From: Patescibacteria group bacterium
GTDB lineage: Bacteria; Patescibacteriota; Doudnabacteria; UBA920
Length of the DNA stretch: 53,486 nt
Direction of reading: 5' to 3'
Assembly (NCBI GenBank): GCA_023484515.1
Contig: JAMDAY010000035.1
Location: 1-53,486 of the forward strand
Each line of letters begins with the position of its first letter. The first letter of the stretch is position 1. Position numbers and translations under genes: made by a program. Below, piece after piece: positions 6,968 to 31,234 of this stretch. A model generated the notes under the pieces. The model was not told where the DNA came from. It searched no databases and worked only from the letters and a program-made list of their open reading frames with translations.

Positions 6968-7164
6968 TTACTGACGATTGCGAACACAAAAAAATACCGA
7001 TGGAACTGACAAAGGTGGAACACGATATTATTATGGATTTGCGGTCCGCCAAACCGTTTGAAGAAGTGCGGATAACTAAGGATCAGCTAGGGCGGTTTGA
7101 CAGCTACTTATTCGTTTCCACCCAAAAAAAGATATATTCCGGCAGCAAAGCACATTTTTCTTGA
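6964..7164 (+). CDS. Hypothetical small phage protein
   Basis: A 66-residue protein (MITDDCEHKKIPMELTKVEH...) whose ATG overlaps the deformylase stop as ATGA, indicating translational coupling; a longer reading from 6940 is less likely. Its own stop codon lies within the -35 box of the next promoter, so it closes this operon. No domain recognised. The region KVEHDIIMDLRSAKPFEEVRITKDQLGRF looks like a short DNA- or protein-contact domain, but no function can be assigned. Confidence 0.55.
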   Translation: MITDDCEHKKIPMELTKVEHDIIMDLRSAKPFEEVRITKDQLGRFDSYLFVSTQKKIYSGSKAHFS

Positions 7165-7276
7165 CAGGATTAAATTTAGGGTTTACTATAAAGAAAATAG
7201 CATATAAATTCCACGGAAAGACCGGGAATCCAACTAACTTGATGCAAATCAGGTTATAGGGTTCCCGGTATTTTTT
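7161..7276 (+). promoter_or_regulatory. Late promoter-leader-terminator module 1
   Basis: TTGACA (7161-7166), a 17-base spacer and TACTAT (7184-7189) form a promoter. The leader contains CACGGAAAGACCG, shared with modules at 19.1 and 31.2 kb. Then comes a long hairpin with outer stem ACCGGGAAtCC/GGgTTCCCGGT (7221-7231 with 7259-7269) and an inner stem in the loop, followed by TTTTTT (7271-7276). The ATG of the next gene is immediately after the T-run. Transcription should stop here unless antiterminated. Confidence 0.65.
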
Positions 7277-7540
7277 ATGGCTAATGGGCAGCAGGAAACA
7301 AAAAGAACTGAACGGATCAAGGCACTGGCGCGCGGTTATTACGGGCAGCATCTTATTGCGTGGCTGGAAGAAATTAAGCTGACTTATTCCGACGTGCGGA
7401 ATGCCAAAAAGCTAGGCATGACATTGGAAACAGCCTGCGCCGTGGCCGGGATTTTGGAAGATGAATTAATTAATCCCCTAAAGCAGTGGCAGGGAACAAG
7501 AGATTCCAAGCCGCAGCCTTCCGGGGAAGAAATGGAGTAA
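7277..7540 (+). CDS. Hypothetical phage protein
   Basis: An 87-residue polar protein (MANGQQETKRTERIKALARGYYGQ...). It is the first gene after the module-1 terminator, with its ATG directly abutting the T-run, so there is no separate ribosome-binding site unless transcription initiates nearby or the hairpin is read through. No domain recognised. It begins the head-assembly block leading to scaffold and capsid. Confidence 0.55.
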   Translation: MANGQQETKRTERIKALARGYYGQHLIAWLEEIKLTYSDVRNAKKLGMTLETACAVAGILEDELINPLKQWQGTRDSKPQPSGEEME

Positions 7541-7542
7541 TT

Positions 7543-7746
7543 ATGCCGGCAACCGTAAATAAAAACTCTAAGGGCGGATATACTGTCCGCACTCCAAACG
7601 GTGTTCACGCGAAGAACACCACCAAAGCAAAGGCCGAAAAGCAAGCTAAATTATTAAACGCCATTGATCACGGCTTTAAGCCGGGTGAAAAACCGATGCA
7701 TTCCAAATCGCAAATGCGCCGGATGATGGCAATGAAAGGCAAGTGA
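7543..7746 (+). CDS. Small basic phage protein
   Basis: A 67-residue Lys-rich protein (MPATVNKNSKGGYTVRTPNG...SQMRRMMAMKGK). ATG 7543 is two bases after the preceding stop and is preferred to an in-frame ATG at 7486 that overlaps the upstream gene. The repeated basic residues suggest nucleic-acid or capsid-interior contact, but this is inference. Similar short proteins with an -MRRMMAMKGK-like end occur in phage head modules; no firm family. Confidence 0.5.
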   Translation: MPATVNKNSKGGYTVRTPNGVHAKNTTKAKAEKQAKLLNAIDHGFKPGEKPMHSKSQMRRMMAMKGK

Positions 7747-7747
7747 T

Positions 7748-7948
7748 ATGCACGGCGGAAAATTTACGTGGATAAATCCGGCCACCAAAGCAACCTATTC
7801 GGAAACCATTAATGATGCTACCGAATCCAAGATTGCTGCGGCCAATGCCCGGGCAGCCACGGCGCTATCTGCAACAACTGCCACGATAGAACTGATTTTG
7901 CCAAACGGCCAAAGGCGCGGCAATTGTTCCGGTGATAAACTTAAATAA
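7748..7948 (+). CDS. Hypothetical small phage protein
   Basis: A 66-residue Ala/Thr-rich protein (MHGGKFTWINPATKATYSE...). It begins one base after the previous stop, in the same operon. No domain recognised. The central NARAATALSATTATIEL stretch is likely helical. It may be a minor head component, but only its position suggests this. Confidence 0.45.
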   Translation: MHGGKFTWINPATKATYSETINDATESKIAAANARAATALSATTATIELILPNGQRRGNCSGDKLK

Positions 7949-8042
7949 TTTTTAATTTTGAGGGCTACGGCAAACCTCATTAAAAACCGACTTATGGGAC
8001 AAAACCCATTTCAAAAATGAAATTAAGGGAAAGGTTTACCTT

Positions 8043-8633
8043 ATGGCACAAGAACCAAACCAAGCTGCCGACTTGGAAAAAGATGACATCGGCATAGACT
8101 TATCGCAAGTCAATAAAGATGCGGAAGAAAATAAGCCGTTGCTGACTGCCGTTGCGCAGCGCGACCATTGGCGTGAGAAAGCCAAAGATCCCAAAACTGG
8201 GAAAACGTATAAGGAGTTATACGAACAGGCTGTTAAACCTAATCAACCAGAGCAGGTTAAGCCTGATTCTCAACCGAAGCCGGATGCTTCGCCACAGCCG
8301 GCAAAACCCGAACAAGTGTCGCAGGATCTTCCAATTAAGGATGTCCTGAAATTGAAAAGCGAAGGGTATAGTGATGCTGAAATTTTAGAGATTGCTGAAC
8401 AGGCAAACTCCATGAAAATTTCCGTATCCGCCTTGCTTAACAATCAGACATTCAAGAAGGGTATTGAAGCAAACCGTGCCGAGAAAAAGGTTAATCAGGG
8501 AACCCCTGCACCCTCCCAACGTGCTGCCTTTAGTCAGAAGGCTAAGTCCATCAAGGACCTAAAAACACCGGCCGAACGTCAGGCTGCGTTTGACGCCGCA
8601 AAGAGGGGAAAACGCTCAAGCGAAAGTGAATAA
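8043..8633 (+). CDS. Probable capsid scaffolding protein
   Basis: A 196-residue, highly charged, proline-rich protein with no hydrophobic core: acidic N-terminus, a Pro/Gln linker around 60-95, and a helical C-terminal region ending in basic KRGKRSSE. This composition, plus its position 4 bases ahead of the major capsid gene, is typical of scaffold proteins that template the prohead and then leave it. No protease motif is visible. The upstream gap 7949-8042 holds a short hairpin (ATGGG/CCCAT near 7995-8010) and a purine-rich stretch before the ATG. Confidence 0.6.
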   Translation: MAQEPNQAADLEKDDIGIDLSQVNKDAEENKPLLTAVAQRDHWREKAKDPKTGKTYKELYEQAVKPNQPEQVKPDSQPKPDASPQPAKPEQVSQDLPIKDVLKLKSEGYSDAEILEIAEQANSMKISVSALLNNQTFKKGIEANRAEKKVNQGTPAPSQRAAFSQKAKSIKDLKTPAERQAAFDAAKRGKRSSESE

Positions 8634-8637
8634 ATAA

Positions 8638-9570
8638 ATGGCAGTTACATCTGATCCATTTACAGCTACAGACCTTGCTGGAATGATCCCGGACCTTTGG
8701 GTCCCTTATGTGCTGGAAGAAAAGTTTGCGAAGTATGTCTTAGGGAATTTCGTGCGTGATTACACGATCTACGCACAAGACGGTGGCAACACCTTTGAAA
8801 TCCCGGATGTCTTCACTAACTCCTTCACCCCGCAGACACAATCCACGCAAGGCGCGGAAGTTACCACTGAATCCGTGGCGCAAGCCAAAGTTCAGTTGGC
8901 AATTAACACCCACAAATACATCGCTTTGTTGATCGGCGATAAGGACCAAGCCCAGCTTTGGAAATCCTACGACTTCAACGGCGTGTATGGCCGCAAGTGC
9001 GGATCCGCCCTTCACATTGTTTTGGAAGATGCCTTGACCGCATTGTGGTCCGGGCTTTCCACCAATTTGATCGGCGACACCGCCACGCAGCTAGTGGATG
9101 CTGAAATCCGTCAGGGCATCAACAAGCTTGCCACCGGCAAGTTTGATCTTCGCGAATGCGCCTTCTTCATCCATACCTATGTGTTTTGGGTGCAGTTGGC
9201 TTCCATAGCGAAGTATTACGATGCTTCCCAAAGCGGCCTGCTTGGCAAAGCCCAAAGCTTTGTCATTGACGGCAACTTTGGCCCGATGGATGCTAGCCGC
9301 GGCTTAACCGGCGCCCTTTATGGCATCTCAATGTTCACCACCCCGGAAATTGTTTCCGGCTTGCAGACTTACCGCAACTTACTGTTGCATAAGGATGCAC
9401 TCGGGTTTGGAACTCAAACCCCGGGCGGCAACATTGTCCGCATCCAAGCGGAAAACGCTATCCGAAACTTAGGTCTTTTGACCGTTTTGGACATCGTTTA
9501 CGGCGTAAAGGTTGTCCGCGAACCCGCTGCTGTGCTGTTAAATGCATCATCCGCCTTTATCGGATCTTAA
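8638..9570 (+). CDS. Major capsid protein
   Basis: A 310-residue protein consistent with an HK97-fold phage coat protein: N-terminal MIPDLWVPYVLEEKFAKYV, a long beta-rich E-loop-like region (GNTFEIPDVFTNSFTP), the IALLIGDKDQAQL helix, and a C-terminal domain with mobile beta segments. It directly follows the scaffold gene. Codon use is more GC-rich and C-ending than in neighbouring genes, as expected for the most highly expressed virion protein. It forms the icosahedral shell. I rely on overall pattern and position; there is no short diagnostic motif. Confidence 0.75.
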   Translation: MAVTSDPFTATDLAGMIPDLWVPYVLEEKFAKYVLGNFVRDYTIYAQDGGNTFEIPDVFTNSFTPQTQSTQGAEVTTESVAQAKVQLAINTHKYIALLIGDKDQAQLWKSYDFNGVYGRKCGSALHIVLEDALTALWSGLSTNLIGDTATQLVDAEIRQGINKLATGKFDLRECAFFIHTYVFWVQLASIAKYYDASQSGLLGKAQSFVIDGNFGPMDASRGLTGALYGISMFTTPEIVSGLQTYRNLLLHKDALGFGTQTPGGNIVRIQAENAIRNLGLLTVLDIVYGVKVVREPAAVLLNASSAFIGS

Positions 9571-11889: not shown

Positions 11890-12173
11890 TTAAAGGCGAA
11901 AGAAAAGAATACAGCAAAACCAAATTCGTCTATGTCCGGCGCCTGCTTGACGGGCAGCTTTTGGACATGAGCGAGTGGGACTGGTATGAAAATATCTGCA
12001 ATAAAAACGAATTTCAGTTTATAGGATATGTCGGCGATGTGCAGCAGACAGTCAATGAGCCGCCAAAATTCTTTGCGCCCGGGGATACGGCGATGCACGC
12101 CTGTCCTTTGTGCGGCAAAACCTATAAGACTGAAAAGCTGTTAAAGACGCACCGCGAAAAAGCCCATGCCTAA
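11886..12173 (+). CDS. Small protein with C-terminal C2H2 zinc finger
   Basis: A 95-residue protein whose last 23 residues, CPLCGKTYKTEKLLKTHREKAH, match the classical C2H2 zinc finger (C-x2-C-x12-H-x4-H) often seen in eukaryotes. The N-terminal 70 residues are unrecognised, with many aromatic residues (EWDWYENIC). ATGA overlaps on both sides link it to the glycosyltransferases. It may bind nucleic acid or act as a protein scaffold. Confidence 0.65.
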   Translation: MIKGERKEYSKTKFVYVRRLLDGQLLDMSEWDWYENICNKNEFQFIGYVGDVQQTVNEPPKFFAPGDTAMHACPLCGKTYKTEKLLKTHREKAHA

Positions 12174-13092
12174 AATCCTTTACATCGGATCATTTCAAAG
12201 GCTGTGGGATGAAGAAGGAATTGCGCAGGCTTTGGAAGCGGCCGGCTGCAAAGTATTTAGGATGGAAGAAAACAGCTTTAAATTTTCCGTGGCTAAGGAT
12301 TTGCTGGATTTGGAAAAGCCAGATTTGGTGATGTGGGCCAAGCTGAAAATAGATCCGCGGATCCGCTATTTCTTTTTGCAGCACCTTGAACAGTTAAACT
12401 TTACCACTGCCTGCTATTTGCCGGATCTGTATTGGGGGCTGACAAGGCAGTGGAAAGCTCAAAGGAAAGAGCCGCCATTTAGATGCACTTACGCTTTTAC
12501 CCCGGACGGCGGACACGATCAGGACTGGAAAGAATCAGGTATCAGGCATTTTACCATCAGGCAGGGTATTGCCAAAGATTTCTGTTATTTAGCCAAGCCG
12601 GAAAAAAAATACAGCTTTGACGTGGTATTTGTAGGATCAATGAACGGGGAATACCCTTACCGGCAAAGGCTGATTGAATGGCTTAGGAAAGAATACCCGG
12701 GCAAATTCAAATGGATTGGCAAAGGCGAAGAACAGGAAATCCGCGGACACGAATTAAACAAGCTATATGCATCCTGCAAAGTGGTTATTGGCGAATCAGT
12801 CTATTCCCCTTTTTACTGGTCAAACCGGATTTACGAAACCATTGGCCGCGGCGGGTTTATCATCCATCCGACGGTGCCGGGACTGGACAGCGAATACGAA
12901 CCCTATAAGCATTTTGTGCCTTACTTCCACAATGATTTTGACGGTTTAAAAGAAAAAATCAATTACTTTTTAACACACGAAACCAAACGCAAAAAAATCG
13001 CATTAGCCGGGTTTGAACATACTAAAACGCATCACACTTTGGATTATAGAATTAAGCAATTATTGGATGTTTTACGATTACCACACAACTAA
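12166..13092 (+). CDS. GT-B glycosyltransferase (CgeB-like)
   Basis: A 308-residue glycosyltransferase of the GT-B type. The C-terminal half has FDVVFVGSMNGEYPYRQRL, then ELNKLYASCKVVIGESVY and RIYETIGRGGFIIHPTV, the donor-binding pattern of the Glyco_trans_1_2/CgeB group. The N-terminal half reads as the acceptor domain. It overlaps the zinc-finger gene by 8 bases, so is co-translated. It probably adds a sugar to a glycan or a virion component. Confidence 0.75.
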   Translation: MPKILYIGSFQRLWDEEGIAQALEAAGCKVFRMEENSFKFSVAKDLLDLEKPDLVMWAKLKIDPRIRYFFLQHLEQLNFTTACYLPDLYWGLTRQWKAQRKEPPFRCTYAFTPDGGHDQDWKESGIRHFTIRQGIAKDFCYLAKPEKKYSFDVVFVGSMNGEYPYRQRLIEWLRKEYPGKFKWIGKGEEQEIRGHELNKLYASCKVVIGESVYSPFYWSNRIYETIGRGGFIIHPTVPGLDSEYEPYKHFVPYFHNDFDGLKEKINYFLTHETKRKKIALAGFEHTKTHHTLDYRIKQLLDVLRLPHN

Positions 13093-13093
13093 G

Positions 13094-14176
13094 ATGGCAG
13101 AACGGGAAAAGCTTTTGGAAGGCAACCGCCCGTTTAAATGGGTGGAAGTTAAACCAACTGATATTTTAAAAGTGGATGATGATAAAGACCGCGGCAAAAG
13201 CATTATTTGGGATCAAGACTATGATAGCTTTTACGAAAATGTTTTTAATTCCATGACTGAAACGCTGCGGCAATACGATGAAAACCCGCAGATCAGGCCG
13301 GTGGATACGTTTTATTTTCAAAAATGGCGCAAATTAAAAGGCGATGCGGATATGGCGATGCGCACACAGCAGTTTTTTGAACTTTATGAATCCATCAAAG
13401 CCAAAGGTTTTGACCCGGAAGCCGGCAATTTTGCCGGTGGCATCTGCGTAGAGCAGACTGGCGAAAGGCTGGACGGATCGCACAGGACGGCAATTTTAAT
13501 TCATTTAGGCATTGAAAAAGTTAAGGTCAAACAATTTGCTTTTAACTGGCAGGATATTGATGAAGATTTTATTTGCCGGAAATTAAAAGCGCGGGAATTA
13601 GGCATTGGCCCAAATTATTATTTTATAGATTACGGCAATTTCACCAATTTGCCGGCAAGCGTGCATCCGACTTACAAAGAAAATGCCGCGCCGCGATGGG
13701 AACTGCTGGAAAATTTAATTAAGCCACAGGGCAAAGTAATTTTGGATCTAGGCTGTAACGAAGGTTATTTGTCCATCATGGCGGCAAAGACGGCCAAGCG
13801 GGTGATTGGTTATGACTATTCTTACATTGATGGGGCCAATACCAATAAGCTGATTTTTGAATATTTAGCACAAAGAGATTTGCCGGTGGAATTTGTGGAA
13901 GCGGATATTTCTGATGTAGTTTTTCCAGTTTGTGATACTGCGCTTTTGCTTAATGCGATTTACCATTTGCCGCGGCCAAAGCAGATCCCGATGCTGTTTA
14001 GGCTGCACCAGAAATGCAAGCATTTGGTGGTGCAGTGCAATTTAAGGAAAGCGCACGTTCGGGAAGAATATTTTGGATCGCACCCGGAAGATATGAAAAA
14101 GCTTTTAGAAGCTGCCGGCTGGAAGGTGAAGGAAGAAATCCAGTGGCTTGATAAACCAGTAATTATTGCCGTATGA
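13094..14176 (+). CDS. ParB-like domain fused to SAM methyltransferase
   Basis: A 360-residue two-part protein. The N-terminal half holds GERLDGSHRTAILIHLG (about 123-139), which resembles the ParB/Srx-type nucleotide-binding core DGxHR. The C-terminal half has the class I methyltransferase motif VILDLGCNEGYLSI (215-228), followed by a sugar- or small-molecule-type fold. ATG 13094 lies one base after the previous stop and is preferred to 13013. It overlaps the next methyltransferase by 4 bases. Substrate unknown; the sugar-cassette context suggests glycan methylation. Confidence 0.7.
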   Translation: MAEREKLLEGNRPFKWVEVKPTDILKVDDDKDRGKSIIWDQDYDSFYENVFNSMTETLRQYDENPQIRPVDTFYFQKWRKLKGDADMAMRTQQFFELYESIKAKGFDPEAGNFAGGICVEQTGERLDGSHRTAILIHLGIEKVKVKQFAFNWQDIDEDFICRKLKARELGIGPNYYFIDYGNFTNLPASVHPTYKENAAPRWELLENLIKPQGKVILDLGCNEGYLSIMAAKTAKRVIGYDYSYIDGANTNKLIFEYLAQRDLPVEFVEADISDVVFPVCDTALLLNAIYHLPRPKQIPMLFRLHQKCKHLVVQCNLRKAHVREEYFGSHPEDMKKLLEAAGWKVKEEIQWLDKPVIIAV

Positions 14177-14655
14177 AACGCGAAGTAGATAAATTGGAAT
14201 TTTGGAAGGAACGGCTTGATACGGCGCCGGCCGGGTATCCGCATTATTCAGTTTACGTGGCAAACACTACGCTTTGGAAGTTTATTGAAAAGAACCACCA
14301 GAAAATAATTAAGCAGCACATGACGGTGAAGGACAAGGTTTTGGATGCCGGATGCGGTTACGGCCGGGCCAGCGAATTTTTGCCGGCAGACTATACGGGC
14401 GTGGATTTTTCCCCGGACTTTATTAATAAGGCAAAGGAACTGTATCCGGACAAGGCTTTTATTCAGGCGGACTTAAAGCAACTGCCGTTTGCGGATAACA
14501 GCTTTGATTGGGCGGTTTGCATATCCATCAGGCACATGATAGTTGGTAATTTGGGGCAGGATGCATGGCTGCCGATGCAGCAGGAATTAAAGCGCGTGGC
14601 AAAAAAGGTTTTAATTTTGGAATACGAAGATTCATCAATTTACGAAATTTTATGA
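14173..14655 (+). CDS. Class I SAM-dependent methyltransferase
   Basis: A 160-residue Methyltransf_11-type enzyme: VLDAGCGYGRASEFLP (motif I, about 56-71), GVDFSPDFINKAKELYPD (motif II acidic residue), and LPFADNSFDWAVCIS (motif IV region). It is short for the family (about 200-250 residues), but all core motifs are present. ATGA overlap at both ends. It probably methylates a sugar or lipid intermediate in the same cassette. Confidence 0.8.
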   Translation: MKREVDKLEFWKERLDTAPAGYPHYSVYVANTTLWKFIEKNHQKIIKQHMTVKDKVLDAGCGYGRASEFLPADYTGVDFSPDFINKAKELYPDKAFIQADLKQLPFADNSFDWAVCISIRHMIVGNLGQDAWLPMQQELKRVAKKVLILEYEDSSIYEIL

Positions 14656-15146
14656 TTGATATTAACACATTACCCGAAGGTTGGCTGGATCAGGAAGAAG
14701 CGGATTTGCTTTTGAAGTGGGCGGAAAAGACCAAAGGGCCGATTGTGGAAATTGGCAGCTATAAGGGAAGGTCCGCGGCGCTGCTTGCCGGCTTGAACCG
14801 CTGGCTGATTTGCGTGGATAGTTGGCAGGATTACGAAGGGCAAAAAGGCGAAGAAATTTATAAAACATTTTTGGAAAATACCAAAGGATATTTAAACATT
14901 GAGCCAGTCAGATGCAGGGCGGAAGACTGGCAGCCGGTGGAATCGGAATTTGTGTATATTGACGGGGATCACAGTTTTGAAGGAACTAAGGCGGCTATTG
15001 AAAAAGCTTTGCAATGCCATCCCAAATATATTGCCGGACATGATTATTACCGGACTTCGGACGGCTTAAACGTTATGAAAGCTTTTGATCAATTTTTTGC
15101 CAGACCTGTAGCGCAGGCCGGCAAGATGGCAATCTTTCAATTATGA
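14652..15146 (+). CDS. Class I SAM-dependent methyltransferase (Methyltransf_24-like)
   Basis: A 164-residue enzyme with IVEIGSYKGRSAALL (motif I), CVDSWQDYEG (motif II) and VYIDGDHSFEGTKAAI, the pattern of the Methyltransf_24 group often found with cephalosporin hydroxylases and sugar O-methylases. The ATG at 14652 is preferred because it overlaps the previous TGA; 14565 is an out-of-place upstream ATG. Likely part of the glycan-modification set. Confidence 0.75.
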   Translation: MIDINTLPEGWLDQEEADLLLKWAEKTKGPIVEIGSYKGRSAALLAGLNRWLICVDSWQDYEGQKGEEIYKTFLENTKGYLNIEPVRCRAEDWQPVESEFVYIDGDHSFEGTKAAIEKALQCHPKYIAGHDYYRTSDGLNVMKAFDQFFARPVAQAGKMAIFQL

Positions 15147-15856
15147 AAATAGGGATATTTACAGCAATTTGCGATAGGGATTTTAATTGGGTGCCGCAGT
15201 TTATGAAGCAGGCGGAAATTTTGCAGTATCCGGTGGCGTGGTATGCGGACAGGCTATTGCCGGAAAATCTTGTAGTGCTGAAAAATTGGAAGCTGACGGT
15301 TGGCATAGTTGAGGGCAAGGACCAATTCAGCGAAAAATCCAAAGAAAAAGCCTTTAACCTTTTAACCGGTTTTGATTGGGCTATCCAGATGGACATTGAT
15401 GAAACTTGGCAGGATGGCGCCAAAGAAATCATTGAAAAGACTTTAGCGGAAAATCCCGGGCATCAGGGCTATTGCCCGATGATCACCGTGGCAAGAAGGG
15501 ATGACAAACTTTACCGCCGGATGGATGATTATTTTTTAAAGGGCAAGGAATCGGGGCGGGAAAGAATTTATAACTTACAGGAAGAATGACACTGGATAGA
15601 TCCGATTACCTGCGGCGCTTACCGGTTTGTCAAAGGCGCGCCGACTTATGACGTAAAGCTTTTTCAGTGTTCGGCCGCTTCCGTGCATTGGGGTTACTGG
15701 ACGCTGGAACTGTGCGATGACCATAAAGCAAAGTGGTTGGATATTTGGGTAAAAACATGGGGATCCCGGCCGTATGCCACTTATGACATGCTGACTGACC
15801 GGGAATATCAGTTTAAAATGGAAGTTTTGGACCCGATTTATTTTAGGCATTTATGA
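15143..15856 (+). pseudogene. GT-A glycosyltransferase interrupted by an in-frame TGA
   Basis: The first part (15143-15589, 148 residues) begins MKIGIFTAICDRDFNWV and carries MDIDETW, a DxD motif. It stops at TGA 15587-15589. The same frame then continues for 88 codons, reading HWIDPITCGAYRFVKGAP and ending at TGA 15854-15856, where the next ORF overlaps as ATGA. The continuation is protein-like and in frame, so the whole 237-codon frame was one gene. The context is TGA-C, a leaky stop. Nonsense mutation, readthrough or a sequence error are all possible; other genes use TGA as a true stop. Confidence 0.75.
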
Positions 15857-16050
15857 AATTTCGCCGACACCACAATAACAAAGGCAGCAAGCAGATCCGC
15901 AGCGGCAAGACTCGGGTGCAGGTATTTTATATGGTGAAGAAATATTTTCCGCATTTAATACACAAACATGAAACCAACGTTAGGGCTGATAGCACGGGCG
16001 GACAATTCGGGCTTAGGGAACATGTCATGGGAACTGGCCCGGCACATTAA
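15853..16050 (+). CDS. Small basic ORF overlapping the next gene
   Basis: A 65-residue ORF starting MKFRRHHNNKGSKQIRSGKT. Its ATG overlaps the restored glycosyltransferase stop (ATGA), which supports translation. Its last 27 codons overlap the next gene in another frame, and the natural end may be around 15970. The basic start (RRHHNNKGSKQIRSGK) is reminiscent of nucleic-acid binding. Low confidence as a real protein, but the coupling is worth recording. Confidence 0.35.
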   Translation: MKFRRHHNNKGSKQIRSGKTRVQVFYMVKKYFPHLIHKHETNVRADSTGGQFGLREHVMGTGPAH

Positions 16051-16882
16051 ATTTGACCAGATCCAGATCGTTTCCAATGGCCGCTATAAGCGCTATCCAG
16101 ACCGCTTTTACAACCTTGTAGGCCGCTTGACGACAGATATTACCATTGCCATAGAAACGCCTTACCAAAGCGAATTTTGGCACGGTAAACGGGTTTTAAT
16201 TCCCATGTATGAATGCACCAACCCGGGAATAATCAGGCAGGCGGATAAGATCATAACCGTATCGCTTTTGGACAAACAATTCTATCCGGATTCCGTATTC
16301 TTGCCGTGGCCTATTGCTTTAGACCGGATTCCCTACAGGCGGCGCAGCAGGTTGAAAACCTTGATTCACAATGCCGGGCATGGCGGCCTAAACGGCAGAA
16401 ACGGCACCGCGGAATTGGTGAAAGCAATGGATCTTGTAAAATCTGACGTGAAGCTGATCATCAACAGCCAGATTCCGATCGAAAACAGCAATCCGAGAAT
16501 CGAAGTCATCGTGGGCGATTACGAAAATTACTGGCAGATTTGGGGGCAAGGTGACGCGTTCATTTTTCCGGAAAAGTTTAACGGTTTGTCGTTACCAATT
16601 CAGGAAGCGATGGCAGCAGGCTATCCGATCATTTCCACAAACCGCTTTCCGTTCAATGCCTACTTGCCAAAAAAGCTCTTGATCCCGGTAGCCAGATACA
16701 GGCGGCAGTTTATTGGCACCGCGTTCGATGCCGCGGAAGTGCTGCCGGCAGACATTGCCAATACGATCGATCGGCTGGCCGGCAAGAACCTGTCAAAGTA
16801 TTCCGATGAAATGCACTGGCTGTCGCAAATGTATTCATGGGAAAAATTAAAAACACAATGGGAAAGGGAACTTTATGGCTAA
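15968..16882 (+). CDS. GT-B glycosyltransferase (Glycos_transf_1-like)
   Basis: A 304-residue GT-B glycosyltransferase. LIARADNSGLGNMSWELARHI at the start resembles the donor/acceptor glycine loop of this fold. KTLIHNAGHGGLNGRNGTAELVKAM leads into the C-terminal domain, and GDAFIFPEKFNGLSLPIQEAMAAGYPII is the characteristic E-x7-E-type donor site. Shares the sugar operon and overlaps the epimerase by 8 bases. Sugar specificity cannot be read from sequence. Confidence 0.8.
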   Translation: MKPTLGLIARADNSGLGNMSWELARHIKFDQIQIVSNGRYKRYPDRFYNLVGRLTTDITIAIETPYQSEFWHGKRVLIPMYECTNPGIIRQADKIITVSLLDKQFYPDSVFLPWPIALDRIPYRRRSRLKTLIHNAGHGGLNGRNGTAELVKAMDLVKSDVKLIINSQIPIENSNPRIEVIVGDYENYWQIWGQGDAFIFPEKFNGLSLPIQEAMAAGYPIISTNRFPFNAYLPKKLLIPVARYRRQFIGTAFDAAEVLPADIANTIDRLAGKNLSKYSDEMHWLSQMYSWEKLKTQWERELYG

Positions 16883-17879
16883 ATATAAATTTCAAAAGCG
16901 GTATTGTGTGATTGGTGGCGCTGGTTTTTTAGGTAGCCACCTTGTAGATCACTTAATCAATGAAGGGCATTTTGTTTTGGTGCTGGATAACCTTATAACA
17001 GGCCAAAAGAAATTTTTAAATAATAGCTCAAGGTGCCAATTTATTTACTGCGACATTACCCATTCGGAAGAACAGCTACGAAAGATTTTTGTTGAACACC
17101 AAATAGAATATGTATTTAACTACGCGGCTGAACCTTACATTCCGCTGTCTTTTCAGCGGCCGCTGCACGTGTTTGACATTAATGCCCGGGGCGCGCTGAT
17201 GGTGATGAACGCGGCGCAGGAAGCCGGGGTAAAGCGAATCCTGCAAATATCAAGTGCGGAAATTTACGGGGATGCGCCGGACCATAGAATTAACGAAGAA
17301 TATCCGGCAAGGCCGCATTCCACTTATGGGGCGGCCAAGCTGGCAATCGATTGCTTAGTGCAGGCTAGGTTTAAGGAAGCCGGCACGCCGGTAATTGCGC
17401 TGCGGCAATTTAACTGTGTTGGCGAACGGGAAAGCCATCCTTACGTGATTCCGGAAATTATTCAACAAATCGCTAATTGGAAAAAAAATCAATCGGCTTT
17501 TAATGGTGGTTCAAGCCCTAGAATTTGCGATGTCAGTTTAGGCAATAATTCTTTTAGAGATTTCCAGTATGCCGGTGACGCCGTGCGCATGGCTGTGGAC
17601 TTGCTGCATAACGGTCAGTCCGGCGAAGTATATAACATGGGAAGCGAAGAAGGAATTAAAATTTATGATTTGGCTGTCCTAATTGGCAAATTGATGGACG
17701 TGGAAGTAAGAGTGCAACCAGATCAAAAGCGTGTCAGGCCGTGGGAAATCTGGCATTTGCAGTCAGACAATACCAAGCTGTATTCGGTCATTAAAACAAG
17801 GCCAACTGTCAGCTTAAAAGAAGCATTAAAGAAAACTATTGAATATTTTTATGCAAACGGTCACAAATGGGATTTTTAA
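16875..17879 (+). CDS. NAD-dependent sugar epimerase/dehydratase
   Basis: A 334-residue extended SDR enzyme: IGGAGFLGSHLVDHL (residues 13-27, NAD-binding TGxxGxxG variant), NYAAEPYIPLSF, and the catalytic YGAAK with Y151 and K155. It converts a nucleotide sugar, as an NDP-sugar 4,6-dehydratase or 4-epimerase. With the DegT aminotransferase downstream (40-base overlap or less), it suggests synthesis of an amino-deoxy sugar. Confidence 0.88.
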   Translation: MAKYKFQKRYCVIGGAGFLGSHLVDHLINEGHFVLVLDNLITGQKKFLNNSSRCQFIYCDITHSEEQLRKIFVEHQIEYVFNYAAEPYIPLSFQRPLHVFDINARGALMVMNAAQEAGVKRILQISSAEIYGDAPDHRINEEYPARPHSTYGAAKLAIDCLVQARFKEAGTPVIALRQFNCVGERESHPYVIPEIIQQIANWKKNQSAFNGGSSPRICDVSLGNNSFRDFQYAGDAVRMAVDLLHNGQSGEVYNMGSEEGIKIYDLAVLIGKLMDVEVRVQPDQKRVRPWEIWHLQSDNTKLYSVIKTRPTVSLKEALKKTIEYFYANGHKWDF

Positions 17880-18852
17880 GCAGCCTTACGAACAACTGGA
17901 AACTGCGTGGGCTAGATACATCGGCACCAATGAAGCCGTAGCGGTATCTTCCGGCACCGCCGGGCTACATCTGGCTTTGAAAGCTTTGGGCGTTGGACCG
18001 GGGGATGAAGTGATTGTGCCGGACTTTGGTATGATCGCTGCAGCATTCGCCGTAACGTATTGCGGCGCCAAGCCTATATTCGCGGACTGCCGGCACGAAA
18101 CCGTGGATGTGGACGGCGGGGAAATTAAAAGAAAAATTATCGATAAAACCAAAGCCATTATAATCGAACACCTATACGGCCGACCGGTTTACGAAACCAT
18201 CCCGATTGTTGGTTTAGGCATTCCGGTGATCGAAGATGCCTGCGAAGCGCACGGCGCGGAAATTATCGGCCGAAAAGTTGGAACCTTTGGCAAGCTGGCG
18301 GTGTTTTCGCTCTATCGAAATAAGATCATTCAGGCGGAAGAAGGCGGCTTGGTAAATACTGACGATCCAGTTTTGGCAAACCGGATTCGGGAACTGAAAT
18401 CTATGGCGTTCGGCCACGCGCACGATTACTACCACCATGCCATAGGCTACAACTACCGGATGACCAACATGCAGGCCGAACACGCGCTGATGGAACTGCG
18501 GGACATTAAGTGGTATTTGAAGCAGCGGCAGGCGTGGGCGAACCAACTGGACCAAGCGTTCAGCCACTACACTTTGTCGCGGCCAAGCGGATCTGTTATT
18601 TGGGTTTACGACATGGTGATGGAAAATCAGGATCAGCGGGACCGGGTATTGCAGGCTTTGACTAAGGCAAACATTCCGGCGCGGCACTTTTTTAAGCCCA
18701 TGAGTATGCAGCCGATGTATTGCGGCGCGGACGTGGAAATCGGCAAAAATGCTTTGAGGTTTAGCCAGCGTGGTTTGTATCTGTGCTACCATCGAAGTTT
18801 TGAGCAAAAGGATGTGGATAAAACAATTAAAATAATTAAGGAAAATTTATGA
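17851..18852 (+). CDS. DegT/DnrJ/EryC1 sugar aminotransferase
   Basis: A 333-residue PLP-dependent aminotransferase of the DegT/StrS class: SSGTAGLHLALKALG and GDEVIVPDFGMIAAAFAV, the aspartate in VIEDACEAHGA (D129), and the PLP lysine in RNKIIQAEEGG (K158). It transfers an amino group to a keto-sugar made by an SDR enzyme such as the gene just upstream. ATG 17851 is preferred over 17839 as it keeps the overlap smaller. The pair probably makes perosamine- or viosamine-like sugars. Confidence 0.88.
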   Translation: MQTVTNGIFKQPYEQLETAWARYIGTNEAVAVSSGTAGLHLALKALGVGPGDEVIVPDFGMIAAAFAVTYCGAKPIFADCRHETVDVDGGEIKRKIIDKTKAIIIEHLYGRPVYETIPIVGLGIPVIEDACEAHGAEIIGRKVGTFGKLAVFSLYRNKIIQAEEGGLVNTDDPVLANRIRELKSMAFGHAHDYYHHAIGYNYRMTNMQAEHALMELRDIKWYLKQRQAWANQLDQAFSHYTLSRPSGSVIWVYDMVMENQDQRDRVLQALTKANIPARHFFKPMSMQPMYCGADVEIGKNALRFSQRGLYLCYHRSFEQKDVDKTIKIIKENL

Positions 18853-19077: not shown

Positions 19078-19181
19078 TTGACAAAGTTTCTAATGGTGCT
19101 ACACTGTAGATAACTTAATCTATAGATTCTTCGGAAAGACCGGGAATGCCTTGAAAAAGGCTTCCCGGTTTTATATTTTAG
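19078..19181 (+). promoter_or_regulatory. Late promoter-leader-terminator module 2
   Basis: TTGACA (19078-19083), a 16-base spacer and TACACT (19100-19105). The leader carries AGATTCTTCGGAAAGACCG (19124-19142), shared with the other two modules. The hairpin ACCGGGAAtGCCTT/AAGGCTTCCCGGT (19139-19169, GAAA loop) is nearly perfect and is followed by TTTTATATTTT. It sits upstream of the portal operon. The layout (promoter, conserved leader, immediate terminator) recurs at 7.2 and 31.2 kb. Confidence 0.68.
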
Positions 19182-19193: not shown

Positions 19194-21014
19194 ATGGCTG
19201 CAAAATCCAAAAGCTCAAAAAATACGGTATTTGGAAAGGTCCAAAAAGAAGTTGCATCCGTGGAAACCTACGGCGTGTCGATGCCTTCGGGCTACCAATT
19301 CAACTACCTTTCCATCCTGAATAAGATTGACCTGTATTTTGCATCCCGCTTTTTAAAGGGCCAGTATGACAGCGAAAACTTTAAAAAGCTGTTCATCAAC
19401 ATCAGCAAATACCGGGTAAACACAGCCACCAAATCGGTCAATATCGGCACCAAGAACGTAAAAATCAGGTCCGCCAACGGGCAGTATTACCACGCGTGGT
19501 TTTTTGAACATGAGCTGCGGGACTGGATGCGCGAAAACGGCTGGGGCAAAATGTTCAACGATATTTGCAGCAAGTGGCCGCGCTACGGGTCCGTAATCGT
19601 CAAAGACGTGAACGGCAACCCGGTTTTAATGCAACTGCGCAACATCATTTGGGACATGACCTTAAACAGCATGATGGCTTCCACCTTCATCGATGAAAAG
19701 CACATCTACAACTTTGACGAATTTTACGAAGCCGGCAAGAAGTATGGCTGGGACAACGTGGAACAAGTGATGGACATGTATGAAAAGCAAAAGCTGGAAG
19801 AAATTCAGGTAATCGAGCGTTACGGCTACGTGCCGGGAGATGAACTGACTGAAAACCCGCAGTTGCCTACGGATTTGGTTAAGGCCCGGACCATTATTAC
19901 CGGGATGGAATGGTATCAGCAGGAATCGGGACGTAACACGCAAAACCGTAAAAATATAAAATCTAAGCCGGAAGTTTTGGAAAGCATAAAAATTCAAAAG
20001 CCGCCTTACCGGAAACTGGATTGGGAAGAAGAAGAAAACCGCGGACTTGGCGTAGGCGTGATGGAAGATCTGTTCCAGCATCAGGAATATCATAATGACG
20101 TTACCCATTTGGAAAGAAAATCTTTGCACTGGTCTTCCAAAAAATTCTTTAACAGCCGGGATCCGGAAGCGCCTTCCAATTTGTTTTCGCAGGCTACTAA
20201 CGGCACGGTATTTAATTTAAAGTCCGAACTGACGCAGGTAGATATGGCGGAACGCAACCTGCCGCAGTATAATTTAGTATTTAACCGGATTAAGGATTCA
20301 GCTGATAATAACGCCTTTACCCATGAAATCGTAACCGGTGAAGCGATGGGTAGTGGCGTGCCATTTAGATTAGGCGCACTTTTGTCCAATGCGGTTAATA
20401 CCCATTATGCCTTTAAGCGCGAAAATTTAGGGTTGTTTATTGAAGATATTATTTATGATTTTGTGGTGCCACAGTTTAAAAAGGAAAAGCGCGGCGAACA
20501 TGACTTTATCTTCAGTGGGGATCGCGATCAATTAGAGCAGGCCCGGGAATTTATGATCGCGGCTTATATGGATGAAATGGTCAAAAAGCATGAGAAGAAG
20601 TATGGCGCAGTGCCGTCTTTGGCAGCTTTTGACCGCGAACTGCAAAAGGTAACGCAAATGGTAGAACGTAGGGACCAGATTTCCATGACCTTGCCAGCAG
20701 GCTTTTATGATGACATTAAGGAAAAAGTCAAAGTGGATGTTTCCGGCGATAGCACAGATTCCGTGGATATGGAATCTTTGGGTAACATCTTAAAGATTGT
20801 TTTGGAAGCAGGTCCGGCTTTGCAGCAGAATGAAACCGCCATGCGTTTGCTCGAGCAGATTGCCAACGAAGCAGGGCAAAGCCCAATTAAATTATTTGGC
20901 ATTAAAACTAAGGCCGCTGCGCCGAATAACATGGGCGGCGCTGCACCCGCGCCGGCTGCGGCAGCGATTGCTAAAGCCGCGGACATGCCGCAAACGGAAG
21001 GACTACCGCAATGA
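19194..21014 (+). CDS. Portal protein
   Basis: A 606-residue protein interpreted as the head-tail portal ring: mixed alpha-beta stem region, a long clip-like helical part, an aspartate-rich region (LDWEEEENRGLGVGVMEDLF) and a low-complexity Ala/Pro C-terminus (APAPAAAAIAKAADMPQ). Length and position (right before connector and tail genes) match portal subunits. It anchors the terminase and is the DNA channel. There is no single short diagnostic motif, so confidence is moderate. Confidence 0.7.
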   Translation: MAAKSKSSKNTVFGKVQKEVASVETYGVSMPSGYQFNYLSILNKIDLYFASRFLKGQYDSENFKKLFINISKYRVNTATKSVNIGTKNVKIRSANGQYYHAWFFEHELRDWMRENGWGKMFNDICSKWPRYGSVIVKDVNGNPVLMQLRNIIWDMTLNSMMASTFIDEKHIYNFDEFYEAGKKYGWDNVEQVMDMYEKQKLEEIQVIERYGYVPGDELTENPQLPTDLVKARTIITGMEWYQQESGRNTQNRKNIKSKPEVLESIKIQKPPYRKLDWEEEENRGLGVGVMEDLFQHQEYHNDVTHLERKSLHWSSKKFFNSRDPEAPSNLFSQATNGTVFNLKSELTQVDMAERNLPQYNLVFNRIKDSADNNAFTHEIVTGEAMGSGVPFRLGALLSNAVNTHYAFKRENLGLFIEDIIYDFVVPQFKKEKRGEHDFIFSGDRDQLEQAREFMIAAYMDEMVKKHEKKYGAVPSLAAFDRELQKVTQMVERRDQISMTLPAGFYDDIKEKVKVDVSGDSTDSVDMESLGNILKIVLEAGPALQQNETAMRLLEQIANEAGQSPIKLFGIKTKAAAPNNMGGAAPAPAAAAIAKAADMPQTEGLPQ

Positions 21015-22228: not shown

Positions 22229-23386
22229 ATGGCCGGAATAGATTCCTATGTTAAATTGATGCTTCATATGGATGGAACGGATGCATCCACGACTTTTACC
22301 GATTCGGAAACCACGCCAAAAACTGTTACGGCCAACGGTAACGCACAAATTGATACGGCTCAAAGCAAATTTGGCGGGGCATCAGGGCTATTTGATGGCA
22401 CAGGGGATTATCTTACTTTAGCTGATAACGCAGATTGGGCATTCGGCAGCGGGGCTTTCACCGTAGATTTCTGGATTAAAGTTAATGCAAATCCTGCTGC
22501 CATAGCAACCCTACTAGCGCAATGGCCGGATGCCGGAGGAACCCAAAGGTCTTGGGATATTGCCTTAAATCCTGACGGAACGATTAGAGTTGATGTTAGA
22601 ATAGAACCTAGCACTTATTCTGTTAATTCTGTTGCCGCAGTAAATAACGGGGCTTGGCATCATATAGCAATGGTGAGAAACGGCGATACATTGACTTTAT
22701 ATATTGACGGGTCTGCTTCCGGAACACCTGCATCGTTGGCTACATCAGGATCATTAAACGATTCAACTGATTCCCTATATATTGCAGCATATAATTTAAA
22801 CCCAGGTCTTGGGTATGAATTTAATGGCTGGCTTGATGAATTACGAATTAGCAAAGGAATTGCCAGATGGACTACCAATTTTACGCCGCCATCTGCCGCT
22901 TATAGCGCCACTGAAGCTTACACACTTGCTGCCGCATACTCCACTTTTACATTAACCGGGGAAGCATCATTATTTAAGATCGCTTTAAAAATTCTTGCGG
23001 CTTACGGGTCTATTTTATTAAGCGGTCAGACAACTTTGTTCAAATGGGGGCGAAAAGTCGCGGCGGCAGTGGGGAATTTTGTTCTGACTGGATATAGCGT
23101 GGCATTGAATTATGGCAAGATTTTGACTGCGGCAGCGGCATCTTTCACCTTAACAGGCCAAGCGGCATCTTTGGTAAAAGCCTTGATAATGGGCGCAGTA
23201 AACGCAACCTTTAGCTTAACCGGGAATTTAGTGACTTTTTTAGTAAATGGAATGGCTATCCTGTGGACCAAACAAAACAAATCCGCCGATCCGACATGGA
23301 CCAAACAAAACAAATCCGCCGATCCGACATGGACCAAACAAAACAAATCCGCCGATCCGACATGGACCAAACAAAATAGAAGTTAA
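22229..23386 (+). CDS. LamG-domain tail fibre/adhesin with C-terminal repeats
   Basis: A 385-residue protein. Residues about 15-215 form a LamG/concanavalin-like jelly-roll: GASGLFDGTGDYLTLADNADWAFGSGAFTVDFWIK and a later GAWHHIAMVRNG region, typical of carbohydrate-binding adhesins. The C-terminal part has five A-x-G-F-x-LTG beta repeats and ends with four copies of an 11-residue unit, TWTKQNKSADP. It probably binds host surface glycans. The matching 33-bp DNA repeat is noted separately. Confidence 0.8.
   Translation: MAGIDSYVKLMLHMDGTDASTTFTDSETTPKTVTANGNAQIDTAQSKFGGASGLFDGTGDYLTLADNADWAFGSGAFTVDFWIKVNANPAAIATLLAQWPDAGGTQRSWDIALNPDGTIRVDVRIEPSTYSVNSVAAVNNGAWHHIAMVRNGDTLTLYIDGSASGTPASLATSGSLNDSTDSLYIAAYNLNPGLGYEFNGWLDELRISKGIARWTTNFTPPSAAYSATEAYTLAAAYSTFTLTGEASLFKIALKILAAYGSILLSGQTTLFKWGRKVAAAVGNFVLTGYSVALNYGKILTAAAASFTLTGQAASLVKALIMGAVNATFSLTGNLVTFLVNGMAILWTKQNKSADPTWTKQNKSADPTWTKQNKSADPTWTKQNRS
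23264..23377 (+). repeat. 33-bp tandem repeat in fibre gene tail
   Basis: Three full copies and one partial copy of a 33-bp unit beginning TGGACCAAACAAAACAAATC start at 23264, 23297, 23330 and 23363. Each encodes one WTKQNKSADPT unit of the fibre protein. Copies are identical at the DNA level, so they are recent and prone to slippage. Confidence 0.9.
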
Positions 23387-29136: not shown

Positions 29137-29140
29137 AAAT

Positions 29141-29281: not shown

Positions 29282-29527
29282 TTATTTAAGCCATTCCCAA
29301 ATTAAATTCCAAAATCGATTTCGGCCACTGTTCCAATAGGCAATATCCCGAATATAAAACATTATTGGTAATACAAATCCAAGAATTAAACCATTAATAA
29401 TATAAGATCCATCACGTGTAATTATTGCCATAGTAAAACCCAAAAATCCGAAGACCACAACCATACTAAAAAGAAAACCTAAAAACTCTTTTACAACTTC
29501 CCTGAATTTAACTTCATCTTTATCCAT
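29282..29527 (-). CDS. Two-helix small membrane protein, first gene of moron operon
   Basis: An 81-residue protein: polar N-terminus MDKDEVKFREVVKEF, two hydrophobic segments (about 15-35 and 43-59), then an Arg/Trp-rich tail (NSGRNRFWNLIWEWLK). It begins only 10 bases after a strong -10 box, so its mRNA is probably leaderless. Operon and orientation point to a prophage gene active in the lysogen, such as superinfection exclusion at the membrane. Function is inference. Confidence 0.6.
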   Translation of the reverse strand: MDKDEVKFREVVKEFLGFLFSMVVVFGFLGFTMAIITRDGSYIINGLILGFVLPIMFYIRDIAYWNSGRNRFWNLIWEWLK

Positions 29528-29537
29528 AGATAAGCCA

Positions 29538-29566
29538 GTTATAGCAGAAAATATTTATTTTGTCAA
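29538..29566 (-). promoter_or_regulatory. Promoter of the small membrane-protein operon
   Basis: On the minus strand, TTGACA (29566-29561), 17 bases, TATAAC (29543-29538), then 10 bases to the ATG at 29527. Near-consensus and almost certainly leaderless. A stem-loop upstream insulates it. Confidence 0.75.
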
Positions 29567-29583
29567 ACCAAAATAAAAACGCC

Positions 29584-29613
29584 GCGGGGGTGCCTAACTC
29601 TCTGCACCCCCGC
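29584..29613 (-). terminator. Stem-loop insulating the moron promoter
   Basis: A perfect 10-bp stem GCGGGGGTGC/GCACCCCCGC with a 10-base loop. On the minus strand it is followed by GGCGTTTTTATTTT, so it looks like a terminator for leftward transcripts. It protects the moron promoter from readthrough. No T-run on the plus side. Confidence 0.6.
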
Positions 29614-29639
29614 TAAAACTAATCATTAACATAAATCAA

Positions 29640-29777
29640 ATGTGGCAAAAATATTGCATTGATGGATTCCATTTTTGGTTTCTGCACCACCACTTGATTC
29701 TGACGGCAATCAGCATAATTGCTGGCGCGTGGACAGAAAAGCGCTTTGGCTGGTGGGGATTTTTATTCAACAAATAA
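29640..29777 (+). CDS. 45-residue membrane peptide (lysis region)
   Basis: A short ORF, MWQKYCIDGFHFWFLHHHLI and LTAISIIAGAWTEKRFGWWG. It has one hydrophobic segment flanked by His and Arg/Trp residues. Lying directly before a two-helix protein and the endolysin, it may belong to the lysis cassette (holin or antiholin type). Start at ATG 29640, stop TAA 29775-29777. No clear ribosome-binding site. Confidence 0.45.
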   Translation: MWQKYCIDGFHFWFLHHHLILTAISIIAGAWTEKRFGWWGFLFNK

Positions 29778-29796
29778 AAATTTAAATTAGAACGCT

Positions 29797-29985
29797 ATGG
29801 ATTCTCAAAAACAAAATGAGATCATGCGATGGGTGAGCTTTGTAATTGTTTCTATCTTACTGCTTATTGCCGGATTCAAAAATTTGAAGGACAATCAGCC
29901 GTATGATAAAACCCTGACAACCCTATTTTTGGTCGTAACCGGCTTTGCGTGGGGGGCAAACCTGTGGCGTTTTTTCAAAAAATAA
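29797..29985 (+). CDS. Holin-like two-helix membrane protein
   Basis: A 62-residue protein with two hydrophobic segments (VSFVIVSILLLIAGFKNL and TLFLVVTGFAWGANLWRFF) and a basic C-terminus (FFKK). This layout and its position immediately before the endolysin are typical of class II-like holins. It would permeabilise the inner membrane at lysis. A second candidate lies at 30984. Confidence 0.55.
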   Translation: MDSQKQNEIMRWVSFVIVSILLLIAGFKNLKDNQPYDKTLTTLFLVVTGFAWGANLWRFFKK

Positions 29986-29989
29986 ATAT

Positions 29990-30982
29990 ATGGATATAAA
30001 ACCAATTATAGAAAAAATATATCCGGAAGGATCCGCAGGCGGCCAGTGCGGCGATTTTGCGCATAAGCTGATAGATTTCCCTTCCATTGGCGATAGTTAC
30101 AGCCAAAAGAAGAAATCGGTTCAGCAATACGGCATTTTGCGCGATTACGTGGGTAACAAATTCCGCCGCGGGGATGTTGTCATAACTGACGAAGGCACTT
30201 TTTTGGGTATTGGATCCGGTCACGTGGCAACAATTTTAGATCCGAAAACTTTGGCCGTGGTGGAAAGCAACTACTTCAAAGATGGTAAAGTGCATTACGG
30301 CCGCAAGGTCCAGCCAAACAGGATCTACGGGGTGATTCGCGGGGCGTATAAGTTTCCGCTAGATTTGCCAAAACTGCTGACGTTAAAAATTTGCTTGCTG
30401 ATGAATTATAAAAAGCCGTGGGGTGCTGTGTATCCCGAAATGCTGCAAGAGTGGTTTTATGAAAATTCCAATCGGACCGTGAAGCTCGAGATCTTTCCGC
30501 TATACACAAACTTCACGGGTATAACTGACCAGGCCAACTACAAGGCCGAAGGGGTAAACGGTCCAAATAATTATTACTTTTATAACGTGCCTTCCCGGGA
30601 ATGGCTAAAGGATACGGTCATGCCGCTGCGCTTTGCCAGCGACAACCAACTGCCGGATCTGACCATCCTGTGCGTATCGAAGCAGGATTGGCGCGGATCG
30701 GTATTCAACGCGGACGGCGCCGCGGAAATTGGCTACTACTACGCCGGCGATGACATGGTGGTGTTGCAGGTGGACGAAGGCGATGTCAGTATGTTCCATT
30801 ACGGCCTGCCGGCGTTCGTCGATTATCTGATCCATGAAATGTCGCACTGGCTTTACGACAAGGCTTTGGACTACAGCCAGCAAGCCGGCACGGACCGCAC
30901 GCACTACTACTATCAGTTGAATCAGATGGACAAGATTTTTAATGATATTAATTTAAAACAATTAATGGTAAACAAAAATTAG
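29990..30982 (+). CDS. Two-domain endolysin: CHAP amidase/peptidase plus HExxH metallopeptidase
   Basis: A 330-residue protein. The N-terminal CHAP domain has GGQCGDFAHKL (nucleophile C20), GSGHVATI (H78) and VVESNYF (E92, N94), the Cys-His-Asn triad. The C-terminal part carries HEMSHWLYDKALD (H282, E283, H286), the HExxH zinc-metallopeptidase motif. Start 29990 is preferred to 29945 because it matches the CHAP start. It degrades peptidoglycan at lysis; the second domain may cleave cross-bridges or a surface protein. It sits between two holin-like genes. Confidence 0.8.
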   Translation: MDIKPIIEKIYPEGSAGGQCGDFAHKLIDFPSIGDSYSQKKKSVQQYGILRDYVGNKFRRGDVVITDEGTFLGIGSGHVATILDPKTLAVVESNYFKDGKVHYGRKVQPNRIYGVIRGAYKFPLDLPKLLTLKICLLMNYKKPWGAVYPEMLQEWFYENSNRTVKLEIFPLYTNFTGITDQANYKAEGVNGPNNYYFYNVPSREWLKDTVMPLRFASDNQLPDLTILCVSKQDWRGSVFNADGAAEIGYYYAGDDMVVLQVDEGDVSMFHYGLPAFVDYLIHEMSHWLYDKALDYSQQAGTDRTHYYYQLNQMDKIFNDINLKQLMVNKN

Positions 30983-30983
30983 T

Positions 30984-31169
30984 ATGGATATACTAACATC
31001 TGCCAGCAAAACGGTGTTTGTCTTGATGGCTTTGGCAACCATCGCAGGTTTGTTTTTAGGGAAGATCGATCCTAAAGACTTTATGATTTTGGCATCAATG
31101 GCTTTTTCCTTCTACTTCGCTTACAAGGGGTCTTCCGCGCCAAATGAACCGCCATTCGCGGGAAAATAG
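30984..31169 (+). CDS. Holin-like small membrane protein
   Basis: A 61-residue protein with two hydrophobic segments (KTVFVLMALATIAGLFLG and DFMILASMAFSFYFAYKG) and a short polar tail (SSAPNEPPFAGK). It begins one base after the endolysin stop. This is the second holin candidate, possibly holin and antiholin together with the 29797 protein. Confidence 0.55.
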   Translation: MDILTSASKTVFVLMALATIAGLFLGKIDPKDFMILASMAFSFYFAYKGSSAPNEPPFAGK

Positions 31170-31176
31170 CTTTTGT

Positions 31177-31234
31177 GATATAATACCCATAGATTCACGG
31201 AAAGACCGAAATCGTATTGATTTCGGTCTTTTTT
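31177..31234 (+). promoter_or_regulatory. Late promoter-leader-terminator module 3
   Basis: An extended -10 TGATATAAT (31177-31184) without a clear -35, then the shared leader AGATTCACGGAAAGACCG (31191-31208). It is directly followed by a perfect 10-bp hairpin GACCGAAATC/GATTTCGGTC (31204-31228, loop GTATT) and TTTTTT (31229-31234). A transcript from this promoter would be terminated after about 45 bases unless an antitermination factor acts. It precedes the second lysis gene. Confidence 0.7.

Follow-up and report, generated by a model that had tools for sequence, protein, structure and literature searches.

The window analysed here is a 53,486-nt stretch of DNA from a Patescibacteria group bacterium (GenBank assembly GCA_023484515.1, contig JAMDAY010000035.1) and is contig 5 of a 36-contig, 1.3 Mb genome; positions 1 to ~33 kb are phage, a prophage integrated in the bacterial genome. 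The phage genes run from an OB/SWIM-like protein (assigned by eye) through replication protein O, GroES, GroEL, TerS, a Dam-like protein, TerL and peptide deformylase to module 1, from there through unknowns, a head protein and a sugar/methyltransferase cassette to module 2, and then through portal, adaptor and tail genes, a CHAP endolysin and a holin-like open reading frame (ORF) to module 3, which is followed by unknowns and the integrase. The three modules, the subject of this report, are found on the + strand at 7161-7276, 19078-19179 and 31176 to about 31235, and each consists of a promoter, a leader and an intrinsic terminator overlapping that leader. All three occupy short intergenic gaps on the coding strand, at or just past the stop codon of the upstream gene, and two of them directly abut the next late gene (7277, 19194). 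A first-pass annotation had described a self-terminating promoter ahead of each of three blocks of structural or lysis genes, and this arrangement was confirmed from the sequence.

The leaders share the consensus ATTC-N(1-2)-CGGAAAGACCG (Table 1). The -35 boxes of modules 1 and 2 are perfect (TTGACA), and the sequences of promoters and terminator loops are unrelated between modules; when modules 1 and 2 are compared, the shared block begins with the outer ATTC arm and ends with the outer GAAT arm, the promoters, loops and remaining terminator parts all being different. In modules 1, 2 and 3, respectively, ATTC and CGG are separated by 2, 2 and 1 bases, and the -10 box and ATTC by 18, 20 and 8 nt. 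The modules had been called identical, which overstates their likeness, promoters, loops and spacings being different. The terminators had been called strong, and they are the three strongest hairpin-plus-T sites in the structural region; in module 1 the T tract ends at the ATG of ORF 7277.

Table 1. Features of the three modules and of the surrounding phage genes, in window coordinates.
Feature	Position	Strand	Remarks
Module 1 promoter, TTGACA-17-TACTAT	7161-7189	+	Overlaps stop codon of ORF 6940-7164
Module 1 leader, ATTCCACGGAAAGACCG	7208-7224	+	
Module 1 leader hairpin (candidate antiterminator), ATTCC-a-CGG-AAAGA-CCG-GGAAT	7208-7229	+	-8.5 kcal/mol
Module 1 intrinsic terminator	7221-7276	+	Arms 7221-7231/7259-7269, T tract to 7276; about -29 to -30 kcal/mol
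Module 2 promoter, TTGACA-16-TACACT	19078-19105	+	
Module 2 leader, ATTCTTCGGAAAGACCG	19126-19142	+	
Module 2 leader hairpin, ATTC-TT-CGG-AAAGA-CCG-GGAAT	19126-19147	+	-6.0 kcal/mol
Module 2 intrinsic terminator	19139-19179	+	Arms 19139-19152/19157-19169, T tract to 19179; -24 kcal/mol
Module 3 extended -10 promoter, TGATATAAT	31176-31184	+	Without good -35
Module 3 leader, ATTCACGGAAAGACCG	31193-31208	+	
Module 3 leader hairpin, GATTC-a-CGG-AAAGA-CCG-a-AATC	31192-31213	+	Weak; -2.7 to -3.9 kcal/mol
Module 3 intrinsic terminator, AAAGACCGAAATC/GATTTCGGTCTTT	31201-31235	+	Arms 31201-31213/31219-31231; -18.5 kcal/mol
Operon upstream of module 1 (GroES, GroEL, TerS, Dam-like, TerL, peptide deformylase, 74-aa protein)	2008-7164	+	
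First gene after module 1, 87 aa	7277-7540	+	No assigned function; 80% identical in L055
Probable scaffold downstream of module 1	8043-8633	+	From position and inference
Major head protein downstream of module 1	8638-9570	+	
Portal protein, 606 aa, first gene after module 2	19194-21014	+	31% identical to L124 and L125 proteins
CHAP endolysin and 61-aa holin-like ORF, end of operon before module 3	29945-31169	+	
First sizeable gene after module 3, 176 aa	31358-31888	+	Without family match
Tyrosine integrase	32541-33491	+	Near prophage right end

In the predicted folds, the leader supplies one arm of a hairpin and the terminator, with its 5' arm, supplies the other, a feature missed in the first-pass annotation. 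The 3' arm of this leader hairpin is the 5' arm of the terminator in all four examples (the three modules and the counterpart of module 1 in the viral contig L055), so the two structures are mutually exclusive, and control is likely to lie in which of the two RNA folds forms at each terminator. The block ATTC..CGG AAAGA CCG GGAAT of modules 1 and 2 folds as a hairpin with one bulged base, and in module 3, where the right arm differs (CCG-a-AATC), pairing with GATTC is retained. Stepwise folding of the growing RNA gave the leader hairpin as the best structure until the 3' arm of the terminator emerged, and the terminator from then on, and the left arm of the leader imitates the right arm of the terminator, as in known attenuators. 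In an ungapped four-row alignment, two rows of which are nearly the same, 96.9% of hairpin cells pair, compared with at most 62.5% in slid versions, and three pairs are altered on both sides, all in module 3; the retained pairing is suggestive of the leader hairpin, not proof. Leader-peptide attenuation was rejected, the leaders being short and without ATG.

Exact matches to the leader are found at the three modules and nowhere else in the 1.3 Mb genome (reversed-pattern control, 0), and searches of the genome with a relaxed pattern and a covariance model found no fourth copy. The flanked hairpin form was found twice against an expectation of 0 from shuffles of the window, module 3 having a different right arm. 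A comparable promoter at most 75 nt upstream was present at 7 of 402 hairpin-plus-T sites (1.7%) in sampled host sequence, compared with all three modules and L055. Against Rfam, none of 4227 families scored above its gathering threshold, and the matches obtained were sub-threshold only. The string ACGGAAAGACC has three copies in the genome, in module 1 (7213-7223), in module 3 (31197-31207) and in 23S rRNA (L367), the last in what we take, from E. coli numbering, to be the A2058 region; this match is probably a coincidence, although any factor recognising that stretch of rRNA would offer a lead.

L055, a 6.2 kb viral contig with a TerL 76% identical to that of the window, was the sole close relative found, and module 1 is present in it at the same place. 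Its promoter (TTGACA-17-TATTAT) keeps the boxes, with TACTAT changed to TATTAT, and has a drifted spacer, and the 25-nt leader block TAAATTCCACGGAAAGACCGGGAAT is unchanged; the upper terminator stem is altered with pairing mostly kept (one double change, two single changes and one extra pair), and in both phages the terminator runs right up to the start codon of the following gene. The leader pattern has at least 120 matches in viral contigs, and among the matches listed a promoter and a terminator accompany it only in L055 besides the three loci of the window. No such element precedes terminators in the distant head, portal or TerL relatives (L124-L131, L133, L136, L312-L323; ~25-57% identity), a TerL search of the order and phylum gave no close prophage relative, and named phages have only distantly similar TerL and no match to module 2 DNA. 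Several candidates were discarded: L066 and L123 carry ATTCCCGGAAAGACCGGGAA without a T tract, a covariance match in L125 lies inside the terminase gene, and covariance model R1, run on 380 genomes of the phylum, gave nine weak matches elsewhere (23-27 bits), none with promoter and terminator, which were judged to be chance. The expected conservation of the leader was thus found in the nearest relative, but it is narrow. When CGGAAAGACCG plus a terminator was sought in viral and genome contigs, the matches were mostly ordinary bidirectional terminators of the form AAAGACCG...CGGTCTTT in unrelated bacteria, so part of the leader core is generic. In Collinsella (L211, L220, L294, L298), terminators with GACTCGGAAAGACCGGGTC have an overlapping alternative hairpin of -10 kcal/mol that resembles the phage leader.

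Each module may be a conditional terminator (attenuator) heading a late operon. RNA polymerase (RNAP) would start at the module promoter and soon make the short bulged hairpin, in which CGG/CCG closes a fixed AAAGA loop. Without intervention, the leader hairpin would be displaced by the downstream arm, the terminator would form and an RNA of ~45-80 nt would be released; termination is taken as the default because, of the two predicted structures, the terminator is by far the more stable. The leader hairpin could be held by an RNA-binding factor of the phage or the host, which would deprive the terminator of its 5' arm; with that arm captured, transcription would proceed into the genes for head, portal or lysis, and a single factor acting on a single common site would switch on three operons together. 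The sequence itself shows the anatomy of promoter, leader and terminator, the mutually exclusive predicted folds, the repetition at three loci and the conservation in one relative; we infer the OFF default, that a factor exists and of what kind, and when relief occurs. A promoter from which only a short RNA is made ahead of structural genes would be understandable if termination were lifted at some stage.

On sequence and predicted folds, that three late operons are held off by conditional terminators with one common RNA site and relieved by a putative factor is given slightly less than an even chance. The more specific proposal, that a previously undescribed phage RNA-binding antiterminator recognises a new bulged CGG-AAAGA-CCG hairpin before the three late operons and blocks terminator folding, is put forward tentatively, as a possibility. 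The earlier suggestion that the common leader is a likely recognition site is supported. Several results weigh against the conditional-terminator reading. Measured against shuffled versions of the upstream part, the energy of the leader hairpin gave p = 0.0035, 0.087 and 0.25 for modules 1, 2 and 3, respectively, and 0.0025 for L055, and the case for the alternative hairpin is convincing for module 1 and for L055, moderate for module 2 and weak for module 3. Overlapping alternative folds of this strength were common by chance at host hairpin-plus-T sites, many of which lie within coding sequence, and the energy comparison was not used as proof. The 11-base core alone, with 2 mismatches allowed, is not unusual; AAAGACCG, a common bidirectional terminator arm, explains part of it, most clearly in module 3; and the element is known from one relative only, L055.

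The search for the factor also counts against the proposal, as no candidate with an assigned RNA-binding family was found, and CAT_RBD (PF03123) was absent from the genome (97.8% complete), with controls matched in 4 genomes. A protein search for ANTAR (PF03861) gave no match, the controls likewise being without match. By position only, the small phage ORFs at 26-577, 7277-7540 and 31909-32181 of the window and at L352:18305-18841 of contig 6 are candidates. A 183-aa protein was set aside as a candidate, its structure prediction being unusable (pLDDT 41).

The first-pass annotation had likened the modules to lambda Q antitermination at pR', and a promoter followed immediately by a terminator before late genes is indeed the pR' layout. 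Under an RNAP-modifying mechanism of this general kind (Q, P7, HK022 put), a phage factor would load at the leader, in its RNA or its DNA form, or the leader RNA would itself modify the polymerase, and the terminators would be ignored. We consider this unlikely. The conserved block is outside the -35/-10 spacer and overlaps a terminator arm, an overlap that processive action would not require. Put-type elements are separate upstream stem-loops, and no known Q family protein appeared among the Pfam and PHROGs matches of the scanned ORFs, a subset of the phage ORFs. P7 of phage Xp10 does bypass intrinsic terminators before late genes (PMC6624301). In lambda, the late promoter is likewise followed by a terminator that must be passed for late gene expression, but the qut site is partly between -10 and -35 (PMC6266700), whereas here three modules have unrelated promoter spacers and a conserved site that is confined to the transcribed leader and lies 8-20 nt past the -10 box, at a distance that varies by ~12 nt. 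Such a variable distance is as expected for a site acting in RNA, and together with the position of the block in the transcript and its overlap with the terminator it favours holding of the leader hairpin, in the manner of RAT or ANTAR P2, over the lambda Q mode. Conditional terminators remain the best reading, but a processive factor that passes all three is not necessary, and the lambda Q comparison is to be replaced by an RNA-switch model.

The same block can be read in DNA as an imperfect dyad, ATTCC-N-CGG-N5-CCG-GGAAT, bound by a phage repressor, the terminators merely ending the upstream operons. An inverted repeat near the predicted start site of three late promoters is in the normal place for an operator, yet the half-sites differ by one base in length in every copy, the right half of module 3 changes along with the terminator, and the dyad coincides with a terminator arm in every copy, which is not required of an operator; this reading is regarded as improbable. 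Little credence is given to the modules as small RNA genes, whose terminated transcripts with the common CGGAAAGACC would act in trans on mRNAs or as protein decoys. Each module would yield a discrete structured RNA from its own promoter and terminator, and GraL of greA is reportedly a terminated leader RNA that acts in trans, but two of the three modules stand directly against the next late gene and the conserved block is buried in structure, not single-stranded. Constitutive leaky terminators, that is, compact operon boundaries with a weak promoter overlapping the upstream operon's terminator, constant partial readthrough and a leader that duplicates a terminator arm, are equally doubtful, for although the modules begin at or just past the upstream stop codon, so that the terminator also ends that operon, and AAAGACCG...CGGTCTTT arms are frequent in unrelated genomes, the ATTC part is outside the terminator and kept in all copies and L055, and promoter-plus-terminator pairs are rare in the host.

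The genes claimed downstream of the modules were largely borne out. The major head protein follows module 1, and the portal protein after module 2 is homologous to the L124 and L125 proteins, with relatives in 14 viral contigs. A second lysis gene after module 3 is plausible but unproven; the 176-aa product there has no family match. The CHAP endolysin (a weak match, E = 0.0012) and the holin-like ORF (so labelled from size and hydrophobicity only) precede that module. The portal gene is distant from TerL here, unlike in L124 and L125, where the homologues are located after TerL. Between the head protein and portal genes (12166-18852) are glycosyltransferases, methyltransferases, a nucleotide-sugar epimerase and an aminotransferase, and the terminase operon carries a phage-borne GroES/GroEL pair (2008-3826) and peptide deformylase (6482-6967), in the same order in L055. 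Repeats spaced 33 nt apart (TTGGTCCATGTCGGATCGG, minus strand) were seen at 23284-23370, within ORF 22229-23386 (tail/baseplate profile match).

Positions 1-127 of the window are an exact 127-nt overlap with the end of contig 6 (L352:19874-20000), which suggests from sequence that contig 6 precedes the window and that the left end of the prophage adjoins the ribosomal operon rpsM-rpsK-rpsD-rpoA-rplQ-rplM-rpsI. Phage-like genes extend just ~1.7 kb further in contig 6, up to the host ribosomal operon rpsM-rpsI, and nearly the whole prophage therefore appears to be covered by the available sequence; no direct repeats of at least 13 bases that could be att sites were found between the left and right prophage flanks. 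Near the left end, a phage gene at L352:19384-19641 matches Tad2 (Thoeris anti-defence 2, PF11195, E 1.8e-19). Upstream of the integrase, 32290-32545 contains, at 32302, a promoter-like TTGACA-16-TAGAAT and, after it, several strong inverted repeats, possibly a structured leader, without an Rfam match above threshold; a structured intergenic stretch at 33750-33905 with a strong terminator at its end (33868-33900) is a possible small RNA adjoining the integrase. Beside the prophage, 36171-42309 holds a restriction/defence block of two D12 adenine methyltransferases, an AlwI-like endonuclease and a large AAA_13 protein.

For only a few phages has late-gene control been worked out in detail; it mostly relies on processive factors such as Q and P7, on activators, or on a new sigma factor or polymerase. 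The repeated RNA site at three late operons looks like a simple, so far undescribed switch for virus particle production, and, if the proposal is true, the same self-cancelling terminator at several operons would bring antitermination of the sugar- and nitrogen-operon type into phage development. The module is a compact part that could be moved into E. coli for testing, and is relevant to phages of mostly uncultured bacteria.

Among known systems, HK022 put resembles the modules as a cis-acting leader RNA tied to phage antitermination, and differs in consisting of two stem-loops in early transcripts that act on RNAP without protein and without terminator overlap. Xp10 P7 is similar in being a phage factor with which host RNAP gets past intrinsic terminators ahead of late genes, and we know of no repeated leader element overlapping terminators in that phage. 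P7 plugs the RNA exit channel of RNAP (PMC6624301). The likeness to ANTAR systems (EutV, NasR, AmiR) is in a P2 hairpin that overlaps the terminator, in the same element standing before several operons of one regulon, and in a loop whose first base is A and whose fourth is G (AAAGA here). ANTAR sites differ in having two hairpins (P1, P2) at fixed spacing, with A1/G4 in both of their six-base loops, compared with one hairpin, a five-base loop and no upstream P1 here. For EutV/ANTAR, one regulator serves repeated leader elements before several operons (PMC3369936). The RAT antiterminator of BglG, LicT and SacY (CAT domain) is a leader hairpin that shares an arm with an intrinsic terminator, the two being mutually exclusive (PMC3369936), and, like the phage element, it is short and asymmetrically bulged. 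RAT has two asymmetric internal loops (PMC3369936) and controls sugar genes through the phosphotransferase system, whereas the phage hairpin has one single-base bulge only and a fixed AAAGA loop and stands before late operons, in a genome without CAT_RBD and without an Rfam match. A hairpin sharing an arm with an intrinsic terminator, the general mark of protein-stabilised antiterminators, is predicted in modules 1 and 2 and L055, and weakly in module 3, and the layout is that of this already known kind (RAT/BglG-LicT, ANTAR P2).

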